This document shows, piece after piece, positions 30,992-36,906 of a stretch of DNA of 64,000 nucleotides. The DNA lies in contig JAKSOL010000003.1 in the NCBI GenBank assembly GCA_024405635.1, positions 1 through 64,000 on the forward strand, written 5' to 3'. This DNA comes from Salinivirgaceae bacterium. Its GTDB lineage: Bacteria; Bacteroidota; Bacteroidia; Bacteroidales; SZUA-534. The translations under genes and the position numbers were made by a program. The notes under the pieces were generated by a model. The model had not been told where the DNA came from. It worked only from the letters and a program-made list of their open reading frames with translations, and did not search any database. Within the stretch, counting starts at the first letter, position 1, and each line of letters begins with the position of its first letter.

Positions 30992-32434
30992 ATGAAAGAA
31001 AATATCATTGGTCGAGCTCGCGAAACAGAGCAACTGCAAGCGATATACAATTCTGGAAATGCCGAATTTACAGTGGTTTATGGGCGCCGACGTGTTGGAA
31101 AAACATTTCTTGTTAGAGAATATTTTGAAAAAGATTTTGCCTTTTATCACACGGCCTTGTCTCCTTTTGAATTGACCGATAATGAAGAACTCCTATTGAG
31201 TCAACAATTACAAAGTTTTCATAGTTCGCTCAAACTTTATGGCGATTATCATGACAATTCTCCTAAAAACTGGATTGAAGCTTTTGATTGGTTGCGAGAT
31301 TTGCTTATCCGCAAGTCGCGAAAGAAACGTTTGGTTGTTTTTATTGATGAATTACCATGGCTTGACACTCCAAGGTCGGGATTTGTTACAGCGTTTGAGC
31401 ATTTTTGGAATGGGTGGGGCGCAGGTCAGAAAAAACTACTGCTTATTGTTTGTGGTAGCGCAACATCGTGGATATCAGATCAACTATTGAACAACACAGG
31501 TGGGCTTTATGGGCGTACAACAAAAGAAATTAGCGTGTCGCCGTTTACGCTAAAAGAAACTGAACAATTCCTGAAATCGAAAGGCATAGTTTATAATCAT
31601 TATGACATTCTTGAAACTTATATGGTTATGGGCGGCATACCATATTACTTGTCGTATATGGAAAAAGGTATGTCGGTGGCGCAAAACATTGATAATATCT
31701 TTTTTAAAAAAGGCGGAAAACTCGAAAATGAATTTATTCGGTTGTTTAGTTCTCTTTTTGTTGATTATGAACGATACATTTCGTTTGTGCGATTTTTGAG
31801 CCAAAAACGTAAAGGGTTTACGCGCAAAGAAATTGCTGAGCATTTTAATATGACTTCTGGCGGCGGCCTCTCAAAAATACTTCAAACACTATGTGCTAGC
31901 GATTTTGTGATGCCGTATGTCAATTTTGACCATTCAAGTCGCGAAGTATATTATAAACTAACTGATTTCTTTTCGCTTTTTTACTTCTATTTCATCGACA
32001 ATCGTAAAACTCTCAATCCTAGTTTTTGGCAAGAAAATAGCAATTCTCCATCGCTTAAATCGTGGCGCGGATTTTCGTTTGAAGAGGTGTGCTTTATGCA
32101 TCAAGACAAGATAAAAGCAGCTCTTGGCATAAGCGGCATACACACTGAAGTGTCGTCGTGGATGACCAAAAATAAAGAGGAAAATGCGCAGATTGACATG
32201 CTGATAGTTCGTGATGACAGGATTGTTAATATCTGCGAAATGAAGTTCCACTCTACTGAAGTGGCAATAGATAAAGACATGGATAAAAATCTCCGTAATA
32301 AAATGGATGTTTTTATGACGGAAACTAAATGCAAAAAAACACCGCAAATAGTATTGGTAACAACTTACGGATTGAAACAGAGCCTGTATGGCAGTGTGGT
32401 GCAGAAAGTTGTAACTATGGATGATTTGTTTTAA
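30992..32434 (+). CDS. AAA-type ATPase with C-terminal DUF234 nuclease-like domain
   Basis: 480 aa. The P-loop is in VVYGRRRVGKTFLVREYF (residues ~28-45), the Walker B in VVFIDELPWLD, and a sensor-like LLIVCGSATSWI follows. A winged-helix segment (RKEIAEHFNMTSGGGLSKIL) precedes the DUF234 region, which has the PD-(D/E)xK-like pattern QIDMLIVRDD ... NICEMKF. Members occur widely in Bacteroidota and archaea, usually as solitary accessory genes; their role is unproven, with links to mobile elements or defence suggested. Strong AT bias compared with core genes nearby. Confidence 0.85.
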   Translation: MKENIIGRARETEQLQAIYNSGNAEFTVVYGRRRVGKTFLVREYFEKDFAFYHTALSPFELTDNEELLLSQQLQSFHSSLKLYGDYHDNSPKNWIEAFDWLRDLLIRKSRKKRLVVFIDELPWLDTPRSGFVTAFEHFWNGWGAGQKKLLLIVCGSATSWISDQLLNNTGGLYGRTTKEISVSPFTLKETEQFLKSKGIVYNHYDILETYMVMGGIPYYLSYMEKGMSVAQNIDNIFFKKGGKLENEFIRLFSSLFVDYERYISFVRFLSQKRKGFTRKEIAEHFNMTSGGGLSKILQTLCASDFVMPYVNFDHSSREVYYKLTDFFSLFYFYFIDNRKTLNPSFWQENSNSPSLKSWRGFSFEEVCFMHQDKIKAALGISGIHTEVSSWMTKNKEENAQIDMLIVRDDRIVNICEMKFHSTEVAIDKDMDKNLRNKMDVFMTETKCKKTPQIVLVTTYGLKQSLYGSVVQKVVTMDDLF

Positions 32435-32573: not shown

Positions 32574-32621
32574 ACGCCCACGCTCCAAAGGCGAAAATAA
32601 GGTTGGAGCAACGATATAAAT
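32574..32621 (+). repeat. Hairpin repeat, left copy (48 bp), before the DUF3791/DUF3990 module
   Basis: It starts ACGCCCACGCTCCAAAGGCG and ends AAGGTTGGAGCAACGATA. GCTCCAA and TTGGAGC pair into a hairpin with a 14-base loop, and ACGCC/GGCG gives an alternative smaller hairpin. The same two ends recur at 33563-33680 on the other side of the three-gene module. The copy ends at the start codon of the first gene and so also forms its 5' leader. Confidence 0.7.
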
Positions 32622-32844
32622 GAGTATGTATAATTTACGCGACATAGTAGAATATACGGTTATGTTGATTGGCTCGTTTGCTAAGAGATATAACATTAGC
32701 AGTCGGGAGGCTCAGTCATATTTGAGTCGCTATGGCGCTTTAGATTTGATTCAGTCTCATTATGGCATTATGCATACACAACGATTTGAGGATATGGTAG
32801 ATGGCTTGTCTGCTTTTTGCAGAAGGAAGGGCGGTAATTTATGA
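32620..32844 (+). CDS. DUF3791-family small protein
   Basis: 74 aa, predicted all-helical (VEYTVMLIGSFAKRYNISSREAQSYLSRYGALDLIQSHYGIMHTQ), matching the DUF3791 pattern in which small proteins occur next to DUF3990 genes. The stop overlaps the ATG of the DUF3990 gene (ATGA). Inference: antitoxin or accessory partner of the downstream protein. A second ATG two codons in (32626) is an equally possible start. Confidence 0.65.
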   Translation: MSMYNLRDIVEYTVMLIGSFAKRYNISSREAQSYLSRYGALDLIQSHYGIMHTQRFEDMVDGLSAFCRRKGGNL

Positions 32845-33317
32845 AACTATATCATGGCTCAAATATGGTTATTGATAGGATAGACTTGTCATGTTCCAAA
32901 CCAAATAAAGATTTTGGAAAGGCATTCTATTTGTCCGATGATTATGCACAAGCCGAGGAGATGGCTATGCTGAAAACTGTTTTCCTTGGAGGAACCCCGA
33001 TTGTTATGACCTTTGACTTTGATGAGTCATTGGTATCTAACGGAACATTACGATTCAAAAGTTTTGAAAGTTATACCGAGGATTGGGCTCGTTTTATTTA
33101 TGACCATAGAAATGATGAACAAGGACGAACATTGCATGACTATGATGTTGTGTATGGTCCAATAGCCAACGATAGAGTCGGAGCTCAAATCAACAATTTC
33201 AGGAATGGTTATATATCTTTTGAAACATTCTTGGAACGAATAAAATATATGAAAGGCATAACTTTTCAATATGCCTTTTGCACGCAGTTGGCAATATCGA
33301 AATTGAAGAGAATATGA
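32841..33317 (+). CDS. DUF3990-family protein (ADP-ribosyltransferase-like)
   Basis: 158 aa. Family motifs are KLYHGSNMVIDRIDL at the N-terminus, DFGKAFYLSDDYAQAEEMA, HDYDVVYGPIANDRV and the C-terminal FQYAFCTQLA. DUF3990 belongs to the ART-like folds (LYHG ... YLS pattern), several of which are toxins modifying proteins or nucleic acids. As I recall the family, the C-terminal motif often reads TEKA; here it is TQLA, so activity is uncertain. It overlaps both neighbours by 4 bases, forming a tightly coupled three-gene unit. Confidence 0.7.
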   Translation: MKLYHGSNMVIDRIDLSCSKPNKDFGKAFYLSDDYAQAEEMAMLKTVFLGGTPIVMTFDFDESLVSNGTLRFKSFESYTEDWARFIYDHRNDEQGRTLHDYDVVYGPIANDRVGAQINNFRNGYISFETFLERIKYMKGITFQYAFCTQLAISKLKRI

Positions 33318-33556
33318 ACGTTACAAAGCAAGAGTTCGATTTTATGGTTCAATCGCTCACAACCGATTTGATTACCATTCTAACAGAGAAAAATCATCTT
33401 TCTGTTAGCAAGGCTTTCGATGTTTTGTATCAGTCAAATACCTTCGCCAAACTTTGTGATGCAAACACAGGTTTGTATTATCAGTCAGCAAGATATATTT
33501 ATAGTTATCTTGTAGAAGAAAAGAAAGAAATGATTGACCAAGCATTGGCTTGTTGA
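33314..33556 (+). CDS. small helical protein, third gene of the DUF3990 module
   Basis: 80 aa from the ATG at 33314, which overlaps the DUF3990 stop (ATGA). Predicted all-alpha (FMVQSLTTDLITILTEKNHLSVSKAFDVLY ...), no signal peptide. It resembles DUF3791-like helical partners in size and position but I cannot assign it to a named family with certainty. It ends 6 bases before the right-hand hairpin repeat. Confidence 0.55.
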   Translation: MNVTKQEFDFMVQSLTTDLITILTEKNHLSVSKAFDVLYQSNTFAKLCDANTGLYYQSARYIYSYLVEEKKEMIDQALAC

Positions 33557-33996: not shown

Positions 33997-34383
33997 ATGA
34001 ATGAAGTTTTAAAATCCCATTTTCTAAGAATTTGGTGCATGATTGTAGCCGATGGAAATGTAGATCAAAAGGAACTCTCTTTTTTGTATCAATTGGGAGA
34101 TGAGTATGGTGTATCAAAGGCGGATGTGCACGATGCTATTTTATCAGGTGGAAATATTACAAGTTTCCCTCAAGACCAAATAGGTAGAATCCGGCATCTG
34201 TATGATTTGACTCGAGTGGCTTTAATAGACGAAAATTTGCATGAGAAGGAAAAATTGTTGTTGTGTGATTATGCAAACTTGTTTGGCTTTAACCCAGAAA
34301 TAGTCCCAGATTTTATAGAAGTGTTGTTGCAGAGTGCAAGAGAAAACGTCCCATTTAATGATTTGATTAAACAACTTAACTAA
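33997..34383 (+). CDS. TerB-like acidic helical protein
   Basis: 128 aa from the ATG at 33997; the frame is open back to 33799 but that part overlaps the structured element. The sequence follows the TerB / DjlA-N pattern: CMIVADGNVDQKELSFLYQLGDEYGVSKADV, with a second acidic helical repeat ALIDENLHEKEKLLLCDYANLFGF. TerB proteins are metal-binding helical modules of tellurite-resistance and stress/defence systems, often at the membrane with VWA proteins. It starts a three-gene run: the next gene begins 10 bases after its stop. Confidence 0.65.
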   Translation: MNEVLKSHFLRIWCMIVADGNVDQKELSFLYQLGDEYGVSKADVHDAILSGGNITSFPQDQIGRIRHLYDLTRVALIDENLHEKEKLLLCDYANLFGFNPEIVPDFIEVLLQSARENVPFNDLIKQLN

Positions 34384-34393
34384 TTGAAGAAAT

Positions 34394-35734
34394 ATGAATT
34401 TTGGATTAAAAACTTTGTTTAGAAAATCGGATGCCGATAATTTAAATAAGAACATTGTTGTCGATAGCGAAGATGTCAGAATGGAGGGCGAAACGTATAA
34501 AACTTGGGGATTTCGCTTGGCAGGTAAAGCTGGTGGCAATAATTCTGTGTTAAGTTCGGCTCTTAATGTTGTTGAACAAAATAATCGCAAGGAACAGATT
34601 GAAAACCAACAACAGCAAGAAAAAAGCAAACAAGAAATTGAAGCTAAATTGGATGCTCTTATTCTAAAGAAAAAGAAGTTGGAGGATCAAAAGAATGGAT
34701 TACAGAATGCTATTGAGGATAGTTTAGAGAAAATAACAAGTTTTAAGGATGCATATACTGATAAGGTAACTGATTATGAGAAAAAGAAGCAAGAAATAAA
34801 GAATGGAGCGACGGGAACAAATAGGACCTCAAAACTTACTTTGATTATATCATGTTTCTTGTTGCTTGCACTTGCTATATATCTATTTACATTTTATTCT
34901 TCGGCTGTTTATAGTGCATTCTTTAAGGAGTTTAAGTTTGATGATATGGGTTTTGGATCTACTATTTTGGATTCTCAAGCACTATCAAAAGCTTGGCATC
35001 AAGGATCTCAGTCTGGGTTGTTTTGTTCTCTCTTGCCATTTGTATTTGTTGCATTAGGTTTTGTTGTGTCTCAATTTGAAAATCAAGATGGATGGAAAAG
35101 CGTAGTTAAAACTATAATTATGTATGCTATTACATTTGTGTTTGATGCAATTTTAGCTTATGAGATTAGTAAAAAAATCTACGATATGGAAATGTTGACC
35201 CAATTAGGAGATTTTCCGCCATATTCTATCCGTATGGCATTTGAGAATATTGGTTTTTGGTCTATCATTTTCTTAGGCTTTATTGTCTATTTGATTTTTG
35301 GATTTGTTTTTGGATTTGCTATGAAAACATACGATGATTTGACTGATCGTAAAGGTCAATTGAGAATGATAGACAAAGATATCCAAAAAGAGCAAGAGAA
35401 GTTGAATAGAAAGATTGCATCAGAAAATAATAAGATTTCAAAAATGAAACTACAGGTGAATCAATTATCAAATAATCTTCTTGTTGTAGAACAGAATATT
35501 GCTCAACAAGAAAGATTAATCAATGGAAACTTAATTGATTTTAATGCTTTGTTAAAGGCACTTAATGAGTTTTTTATGGGTTGGATGAGCTATTTGACTG
35601 GTGCTTCGTCAGGTTCTGAAAAGAAAACATTGGCTCAGCAAATTTTTAACAATAAGATTTCGGAAGTGAATAATAGTTTTCACCCACAAAAAAAGGATGC
35701 GATAATTGATCAATTAACTTTAAAAACCGAATAA
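34394..35734 (+). CDS. four-helix membrane protein with two long coiled coils
   Basis: 446 aa, no recognised family. A cytoplasmic coiled coil (~60-138, rich in Q/K/E) leads to TM1 (~147-168), TM2 (~207-226), TM3 (~237-257) and TM4 (~286-310), then a second coiled coil (~320-385) and a C-terminal tail. The symmetrical coil-TM-coil layout suggests a scaffold that crosses the inner membrane. It sits between the TerB-like and VWA-like genes, with gaps of 10 bases and 1 base, so the three are almost surely one operon. AT-rich codon use points to horizontal acquisition. Confidence 0.6.
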   Translation: MNFGLKTLFRKSDADNLNKNIVVDSEDVRMEGETYKTWGFRLAGKAGGNNSVLSSALNVVEQNNRKEQIENQQQQEKSKQEIEAKLDALILKKKKLEDQKNGLQNAIEDSLEKITSFKDAYTDKVTDYEKKKQEIKNGATGTNRTSKLTLIISCFLLLALAIYLFTFYSSAVYSAFFKEFKFDDMGFGSTILDSQALSKAWHQGSQSGLFCSLLPFVFVALGFVVSQFENQDGWKSVVKTIIMYAITFVFDAILAYEISKKIYDMEMLTQLGDFPPYSIRMAFENIGFWSIIFLGFIVYLIFGFVFGFAMKTYDDLTDRKGQLRMIDKDIQKEQEKLNRKIASENNKISKMKLQVNQLSNNLLVVEQNIAQQERLINGNLIDFNALLKALNEFFMGWMSYLTGASSGSEKKTLAQQIFNNKISEVNNSFHPQKKDAIIDQLTLKTE

Positions 35735-35735
35735 G

Positions 35736-36587
35736 ATGAAAAGAATTTTGTTATCTGCCCTATGGGGTATTGTATGCGTTCTATTTTGCAATGGTTGTTC
35801 AGGTTCTGGCAATTCAAATGGAAATGATGGTAGTGGCTCAACTAAAGTTAAGAAACCATTGAATATAACGGTGTTTATTGATTTATCTGACCGTATTGAA
35901 AAAAATACTCACCATGTTTCTTCTGAAACCAAGGATTTGGAGATTTTCAAACATTTGACTGCTAGTTTTAAAGAGAAAGCAGTTTCAGAAAAAATAGTTC
36001 CATGTGAGGATAGAATGGAGGTTTTCTTTTATCCTGTACCTAATGCTTCTGAAATAATTAACTTGTCTAAAGGTTTGATAATTGATCTAGCGAAGGTGAA
36101 TATTAAAAAAAAGAAGGAAGTGTTGAATCAGTTGGACGTTAAATGGGACTCTGCTTTGTCTCAAATTTATGCTCAAGCAAAAGCAGAAAAAAAATATCAT
36201 GGCGCTGATATCTACGGATTTGTTGGTAAAAAGATTAATTCTCAATGTGTTCTTCCTAATTATCGCAACGTGTTAATAATTCTTTCGGATGGCTATCCTT
36301 ATGATGTTAAATCGGCTAATTCGTATGGGAATAATGAATTTTCTTATGTTACTCCTAAATTGTTGAGACAATATCCTAATGCAAAATTGAAACCATTAAA
36401 AGTTGATTTGTCAAATTTGGAAATCCTTCTTTTGGAAGTAGATGAAGCGAATAAAGGAGATTATTATAAACTCCAGACTATTTGGGCAGATTGGTTAAAT
36501 GGTATGAATGTCAAGAGATTTGAAATGGCTGAAACAGATTTGCCAAATCAAACCCAAAAGGTTATTGATGCTTTTTTGAAGCAATAA
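35736..36587 (+). CDS. VWA-like lipoprotein
   Basis: 283 aa. The signal peptide ends in a candidate lipoprotein Cys at residue 21 (CNGCSGSG), followed by a Gly/Ser/Asn linker. The mature domain begins NITVFIDLSDRIEK, a MIDAS-like DxSxR at D49-S51-R53, and later has VLIILSDGYPYD, the usual position of the second metal loop, so a von Willebrand factor A fold is likely. Predicted on the periplasmic face of a membrane. It is the last gene of the TerB-like operon and is followed by an inverted repeat at 36737. Confidence 0.65.
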   Translation: MKRILLSALWGIVCVLFCNGCSGSGNSNGNDGSGSTKVKKPLNITVFIDLSDRIEKNTHHVSSETKDLEIFKHLTASFKEKAVSEKIVPCEDRMEVFFYPVPNASEIINLSKGLIIDLAKVNIKKKKEVLNQLDVKWDSALSQIYAQAKAEKKYHGADIYGFVGKKINSQCVLPNYRNVLIILSDGYPYDVKSANSYGNNEFSYVTPKLLRQYPNAKLKPLKVDLSNLEILLLEVDEANKGDYYKLQTIWADWLNGMNVKRFEMAETDLPNQTQKVIDAFLKQ

Positions 36588-36906
36588 AACAAATTACACT
36601 TTTCTTACAAAAACACACTTCAAACTTGAACTTTTCCCTAAAATTGGCACTTCAAAAATTATACTTTTTTAGAAATGTTGTAATTCGCAATTAGTCAATT
36701 TGTTGTGTGGTGTTTAATTCGTGGCTGGATTTATTAGGAATCAAACAAGCTGTTCTTATTGAAAAAAGATCGCTTGTTTGATTCCTTTATTCTAATATCA
36801 TGTAAATATTTCTAAATAGCGCATAATAAGCATTTTAAATATGTCGATAACCAGGCAAATAAAAAGCAGTATGTGCATTGTGTTTTCTCTCCGTAGGCTT
36901 ACCTAC
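36588..36906. other. 319-bp gene-free stretch at the right edge of the accessory island
   Basis: Very AT-rich. Apart from the perfect inverted repeat at 36737-36785 no ORF, promoter or RNA is evident. Core genes resume on the minus strand at 36907. Confidence 0.6.
36737..36785. terminator. Perfect 14-bp inverted repeat, probable terminator
   Basis: GGAATCAAACAAGC (36737-36750) and GCTTGTTTGATTCC (36772-36785) are exact reverse complements with a 21-base loop, followed by TTTATT. It may terminate the TerB-like operon. The long loop and low GC make a role as an element end equally possible. Confidence 0.4.

Follow-up and report, generated by a model that had tools for sequence, protein, structure and literature searches.

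Ter systems combine the binding proteins TerB and TerD, the membrane protein TerC, and the VWA proteins TerF or TerY (PMC7824862, PMC11090510). In TerY-P triads, which are linked to restriction systems, a VWA protein is joined by a phosphatase and a kinase (PMC11090510), and both Ter and TerY-P modules have been linked to nucleases and conflict systems (PMC7824862, PMC11090510). Here we analyzed a 64,000-nucleotide stretch of a Salinivirgaceae bacterium genome (contig JAKSOL010000003.1, positions 1 to 64,000; hereafter the window) and characterized a three-gene unit within it, which encodes a TerB-like protein of 128 amino acids (aa), a 446-aa membrane protein that we name MEM, and a 283-aa lipoprotein that we name VWA. 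Like the Ter systems, this trio unites a TerB-domain protein with a membrane protein and a VWA protein; unlike them, it is devoid of TerC, TerD, TerE, TerF and TerZ, its membrane protein matches no known family, and its VWA protein is a lipoprotein with a D-x-S-x-R motif. It also differs from TerY-P in that no kinase/phosphatase triad is present at the trio. Our analysis indicates that the trio is a real, conserved and apparently undescribed unit. That its products form one complex, with the topology presented below, is highly probable; that this envelope-spanning complex would serve as a signaling relay in stress or phage defense is, judged from sequence, an evenly balanced proposition.

Other described systems resemble parts of the trio. 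TssR and TssN of Bacteroidota type VI secretion are a lipoprotein with a VWA-like domain and a multi-transmembrane (TM) inner-membrane protein, respectively (PMC10781749), and by description this is the same kind of pairing as that of VWA with MEM; type VI secretion genes were not seen among the trio neighbors examined. Altae-Tran et al. 2023 described vWA-related systems with transmembrane proteins, UAS-7 and others, that broadly associate with CRISPR loci, and an adaptation-linked figure of that paper lists WYL, PrimPol and vWA; TerB, a member of our trio, is unmentioned in its text (PMC10910872). Furthermore, Cam1, Csx23 and CorA are membrane effectors encoded in type III CRISPR loci (PMC11229360). 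No paper describing the trio was found in the open literature, a coverage outside which the 2012 Ter survey and subscription papers lay.

Conservation of the three-gene unit

The TerB, MEM and VWA genes lie co-directed on the + strand at 33997-34383, 34394-35734 and 35736-36587, respectively, and this layout is that of an operon, with intergenic gaps of 10 bases between TerB and MEM and 1 base between MEM and VWA. TerB starts at ATG 33997, matching its homologs; the mechanically called open reading frame (ORF) extends back to GTG 33799. The GC content of the trio is 32.7% (TerB, 35.4%; MEM, 32.0%; VWA, 32.6%) versus 41.6% for the window, and <1% of the window stretches of trio length are equally AT-rich. 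The close spacing and the AT-richness relative to the surroundings, both pointed out in the initial annotation made from the sequence alone, were thus reproduced in the ORF coordinates and base composition.

When 393 genomes of the same order were searched with the VWA protein, matches were found in 12 other genomes. Nearly all of these matches have a membrane protein of ~400 aa encoded directly upstream, preceded in about half by a TerB-like gene, and the weakest (L015) occurs with neither. A VWA profile was also searched against one genome per bacterial or archaeal species, and the best 80 of the 170 relatives retrieved were analyzed. Their hosts include Flavobacterium, Chryseobacterium, Elizabethkingia, Pedobacter, Chitinophaga, Bacteroides, Prevotella and others, nearly all Bacteroidota; the two exceptions are metagenome bins labeled Succinivibrio and Bacillota, which may be misassigned. 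MEM was found ≤150 bp from VWA in 76 of the 80 loci, with a median gap of 4 bp, and TerB ≤150 bp from MEM in 69. Because the unit recurs in about 70 other loci, the association of the three genes is more than chance. In a phylum-wide sample of 395 genomes, strong matches (E<1e-20) to MEM and to VWA fell in an identical set of 20 genomes, and two weaker VWA matches (G491 and G696) adjoin PLD-MEM fusions. The proposal of a compact unit that travels together therefore held up and, far from occurring mostly alone, the strong MEM matches always came with a VWA gene.

Predicted architecture of the complex

Neither MEM nor VWA matched a curated family in Pfam, NCBIfam, PHROGs or PADLOC, where generic coiled-coil matches were all that was obtained, and no solved relative that counts was found for either by sequence. 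Similarly, scanning the trio with PADLOC (2023 library) yielded weak matches of coiled-coil type only, and a PHROG "tape measure" match to MEM (E 2e-5) was discarded, as it looks like a coiled-coil artefact.

The VWA protein was modeled by AlphaFold2 from 58 sequences (pLDDT 91.7), and residues 39-283 of the model match VWA domains at Z 12-14. The top match was the TFIIH-subunit chain 9pd3_E (VIA-align Z 14.0; root-mean-square deviation 2.9 over 175 residues), followed at Z ~12-13.7 by proteasome Rpn10, pilins, Sec24, integrins and NorD. Across the 58 homologs, D49, L50, S51 and R53 of the motif D49-L-S51-D-R53 (35880-35894) are invariant and D52 is kept in >90%. The canonical metal-ion-dependent adhesion site (MIDAS), DxSxS...T...D, is therefore altered at motif 1, where the third DxSxS residue is always Arg. 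No canonical motif-2 Thr was identified in the homolog alignments; Asp158 (36207-36209), part of a G-x-D-I-W/Y motif, is invariant in alignment A1 and >90% conserved in alignment A4, and could possibly stand in for motif 2. The motif 3 aspartate is kept, with D185-G186 (36288-36293; [T/S]-D-G-Y) invariant. Cys21 (35796-35798), the probable lipidation site, is invariant in alignment A1. By a simple pattern, 46 of the 58 homologs carry a lipobox-like Cys, and the acidic run that is the expected mark of a Bacteroidota surface-export signal was found in 0 of 58; VWA is thus likely a periplasm-facing lipoprotein.

MEM has four hydrophobic peaks, at residues 148-166, 207-225, 237-255 and 291-309 (four-TM block, 34835-35320), and this even number of segments puts its termini on the same membrane side. 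An AlphaFold2 model based on an alignment of 47 sequences (pLDDT 89.3, pTM 0.62) predicts a four-helix membrane part on a stalk formed by an antiparallel coiled coil, in which the N-terminal arm before TM1 (residues 72-136; 34607-34801) and the C-terminal arm after TM4 (residues 319-377; 35348-35524), each a helix in the model, pair as a single two-stranded structure. With about sixty residues of coil, the stalk would be ~9 nm long. Fold comparison returned generic antiparallel coiled coils (SMC arms, dynein stalk) and nothing else, a likeness of common arrangement that shows no relationship or function. In the 47-sequence alignment, invariant columns fall mostly in the TM block and include D251 in TM3; those beyond the block (G39, G396 and W397) cluster at the distal ends of the arms, suggesting a docking head at the far end of the stalk.

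The TerB identity of the first protein is supported by Pfam PF05099 (27.8 bits versus a cut-off of 24.4), which 43 of 44 aligned homologs also matched (E≤0.01), and by a profile match to the solved COG3793 TerB 2ou3 (E 1.2e-4). D19, E26, D78 and E85, which make up two conserved D..E acidic pairs, are invariant in the 44 homologs. A Pfam-recognized TerB would also be expected of a classical tellurite/metal-resistance (Ter) operon. That explanation is very improbable, and we rejected it: TerD was not found in the whole genome, TerC is encoded on a contig other than that of the trio, TerA, TerD, TerE, TerF and TerZ are all missing from the three-gene unit, and the MIDAS of the VWA protein, itself a lipoprotein, is altered.

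Compared with these results, the initial annotation was right that the first protein is TerB-like, that the central one lies outside known families, and that the third has a VWA fold bearing the D49-S51-R53 motif. Its statement that TerC, TerD and TerZ are missing is correct for the locus, and for TerD genome-wide; the TerC gene exists elsewhere in the genome. It also placed coiled coils on either side of the TM block: they do flank it in sequence order, but the model joins them into one stalk, and both appear to lie on one face of the membrane, probably the cytoplasmic one, and not on opposite faces.

Fusions and CRISPR-linked relatives

Plasmid pSP2_2 of Runella sp. SP2 encodes a 704-aa MEM-VWA fusion (L180:7629-9743; NZ_CP031032.1:57373-59487), the first part of which matches the window MEM (97.8 bits, E 6e-26) and the last part the window VWA (47.4 bits, E 3e-10). 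Encoding both as a single chain is direct evidence that MEM and VWA act together, and the union of membrane and VWA parts bears out the membrane-spanning arrangement that had been proposed. An extra hydrophobic segment lies between the two parts, which fits a VWA part positioned across the membrane from the stalk.

A PLDc_2 domain is fused N-terminally to MEM in G491, G696 and G954 (L175, L184 and L201), as supported by Pfam for G491 (E 4e-23) and G954 (E 1e-15) and by sequence similarity for G696. In all three the VWA lipoprotein gene comes next and TerB is missing; TerB and PLD therefore share one gene-order position.

The Runella fusion lies within a type III-B CRISPR locus, flanked by a WYL regulator on one side and by a CRISPR primase-polymerase with cas2 and cas1 on the other. 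Genes of these kinds (WYL, PrimPol and vWA) are the ones listed in the adaptation-linked figure of Altae-Tran et al. 2023 (PMC10910872), and the CRISPR-linked MEM-VWA, compared by description only, may be among the clusters of that study. In G544, MEM-VWA follows a type III locus (Cas10, RAMP proteins, Cas6, Cas2, RT-Cas1, NE0113 and Card1) and adjoins Card1 save for one small ORF between them. Taken by themselves, these copies would be equally compatible with an inside-out membrane effector, in which a cytoplasmic alarm, such as a CRISPR second messenger or a TerB ligand, would switch MEM, and the switched MEM would perturb the inner membrane or act on the periplasm through VWA. Like Cam1, Csx23 and CorA (PMC11229360), these two relatives of MEM are membrane proteins encoded within a type III locus or at its end, and the invariant Asp251 within TM3 would suit such a role. 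However, those effectors have a ligand-binding domain or known homology, whereas MEM has none by Pfam, comes with a VWA partner and occurs mostly without CRISPR. No Pfam match to a CARF or SAVED domain was found in MEM or VWA, the CRISPR-linked cases are two only, and the PLD fusions and the cytoplasmic TerB would fit an output in the cytoplasm better. As a whole, an inside-out effector appears unlikely.

Evolution and gene neighborhoods

A quick tree was built from 67 MEM sequences; its deep part is unsure because of long branches. On it, most TerB-bearing units fall into one broad group. Members without TerB, the CRISPR-linked and PLD-fused ones among them, are mostly deep branches. The TerB label changes 5 times on this tree, compared with 15.9 in shuffles. 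Some sequences cluster with those of other orders (G304 with Maribacter, G091 with Flavobacteriaceae, and Pedobacter with Elizabethkingia), which suggests horizontal transfer. No relatives of the window proteins were found in viral contigs, the Runella fusion had no match in the phage collection, and plasmid collections contained only Runella pSP2_2. The divergent VWA profile retrieved one contig from the viral collection (L207, IMGVR_UViG_3300043424_000947), on which the gene of a 1455-aa unknown protein is followed by MEM, a 127-aa gene and VWA.

In Chitinophaga and G945, the genes preceding (TerB)-MEM-VWA include caspase, TIR-FGE and DUF1508 genes, and N6-methyltransferase genes of restriction-modification type lie downstream in G956. 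In Flavobacteriia and Sphingobacteriia, the unit belongs to a larger cluster with a divergent F06 gene, the TPR kinase F04 and the response regulator F05 upstream; F04 and F05 occur near the trio in 46 of the 80 loci, F05 always on the same strand. Among the same best 80 loci, HSDR_N/PD-(D/E)xK genes are co-directional in 28 and SNase genes in 14, and EEP nuclease genes are found ≤3 kb away in 7. Other accessory genes encode DUF6804, DUF1508, DUF4236/Excalibur-like, YidD-like and small Cys-rich proteins in varying order. Nearly all accessory genes are within 3 kb and on the trio strand (EEP in 3 of 7). A variable cluster of nuclease and small-protein genes behind F06 and the kinase/regulator pair recurs in L039, L073, L106 and other Flavobacteriia. 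Signal-like N-termini are seen in most of the SNase and EEP proteins and in none of the HSDR_N proteins, so nucleases may be located on either side of the inner membrane.

The kinase/regulator pair raises the explanation that the trio is a general envelope-stress or signaling module with no specific defense role, in which VWA would sense envelope damage or periplasmic metal, MEM and TerB would relay it, and the upstream pair would set expression in Flavobacteriia. The frequency and constant strand of that pair accord with this, and so do the mostly housekeeping flanks in Bacteroidales and the chromosomal location of the trio, hardly found on phages or plasmids. However, the pair is also present without the trio in G464, G419 and G409, with other genes behind it; links to nucleases, TIR/caspase and CRISPR, together with PLD fusions, would be unusual for a housekeeping stress pathway; and the spread is patchy even within the order. 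We regard this explanation as possible though doubtful. In G464 (L172), the kinase/regulator module is followed, in place of the trio, by genes for an HSDR_N nuclease and a Cas9-like protein (1527 aa, HNH_4, RuvC_III); the Cas9 gene was set aside as a linkage, as it may be chance adjacency.

The window copy has neighbors of its own. Just upstream of the trio, 32620-33556 contains DUF3791 (PF12668) and DUF3990 (PF13151) genes followed by an 81-aa ORF. The DUF3990 protein has weak similarity to the ADP-ribosyltransferase-type ART-PolyVal, and the cassette looks like a small toxin-antitoxin-like unit; an ATPase_2/DUF234-type AAA ATPase gene (30992-32434) adjoins it. In the hairpin-like region 5' of TerB, a single-copy sequence in the genome, no inverted repeat was reported. 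Downstream of the trio, 36736-36786 holds a perfect 15-nt inverted repeat with a 21-nt spacer, a possible terminator, and gene order at the downstream DUF58 gene is not conserved across related genomes, as indicated by an empty-site comparison. No cas genes adjoin the trio as judged by ORFs and Pfam, and PP2C phosphatase or Ser/Thr kinase genes are not among the window ORFs flanking it. AAA_14 and DUF4143 ATPases recur near other Bacteroidales loci.

Discussion

The signaling relay that we propose would run from the envelope to the cytoplasm. The periplasmic VWA lipoprotein would bind a partner through its VWA domain, and MEM, as a four-helix inner-membrane protein, would convey the resulting change along its coiled-coil stalk into the cytoplasm. 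TerB, presumed to be a small acidic adaptor that binds a ligand or metal, would dock on the distal head of the stalk and from there signal to effectors. Its place would be taken, in divergent relatives, by the PLD nuclease-type domain that is fused to MEM. We prefer outside-in signaling because the interchangeable part (TerB or PLD) is predicted to be cytoplasmic, and because the predicted nucleases nearby would suit a response to entering DNA. A function in stress or phage defense is suggested by distant relatives, which adjoin CRISPR genes or carry fused nuclease-type domains.

Several findings weigh against this relay. The charge balance of the MEM loops leaves its topology undecided, and activation by a cyclic nucleotide is unsupported, as Pfam identifies neither a CARF nor a SAVED domain in MEM. 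Viral and plasmid collections hardly contain the trio, and the deep relatives L024, L025, L026 and L181 have no defense-like neighbors. In Bacteroidales, 108 neighbors, the window's included, belong mostly to housekeeping Pfam families, and PADLOC matches are few and scattered, several of them being AAA ATPases, which are believed to be common in this order. Defense islands in Bacteroidales are therefore not convincing, and such a setting is not shown for the order of the window. The CRISPR and nuclease neighbor counts are raw, taken without a background rate, and the kinase/response-regulator pair of Flavobacteriia also fits ordinary envelope-stress regulation. The evidence for a defense role is thus circumstantial: for the window copy the role is plausible from distant relatives and unproved. 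Of the undescribed membrane-spanning stress or defense system first suggested for this locus, the compact and membrane-spanning character stood, whereas its defense part depends on neighbors and fusions found in relatives.

A broader idea, which we put forward tentatively, is that MEM-VWA represents an immune scaffold of a new, transmembrane class whose cytoplasmic partners can be exchanged, namely TerB, PLD, CRISPR type III signaling and TIR/caspase. Such a scaffold might, with the same reserve, link an envelope event to intracellular and periplasmic nucleases across Bacteroidota.

The role of TerB-type proteins has long been unclear. The unit described here is widespread in Bacteroidota, gut genera included, and its central protein has no family name. 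Should the trio act as an immune or stress relay, it would reveal the way in which an envelope event reaches TerB-type proteins, and it would offer a ready experimental system, with three genes, a natural MEM-VWA fusion, and PLD fusions and CRISPR-linked copies for comparison.

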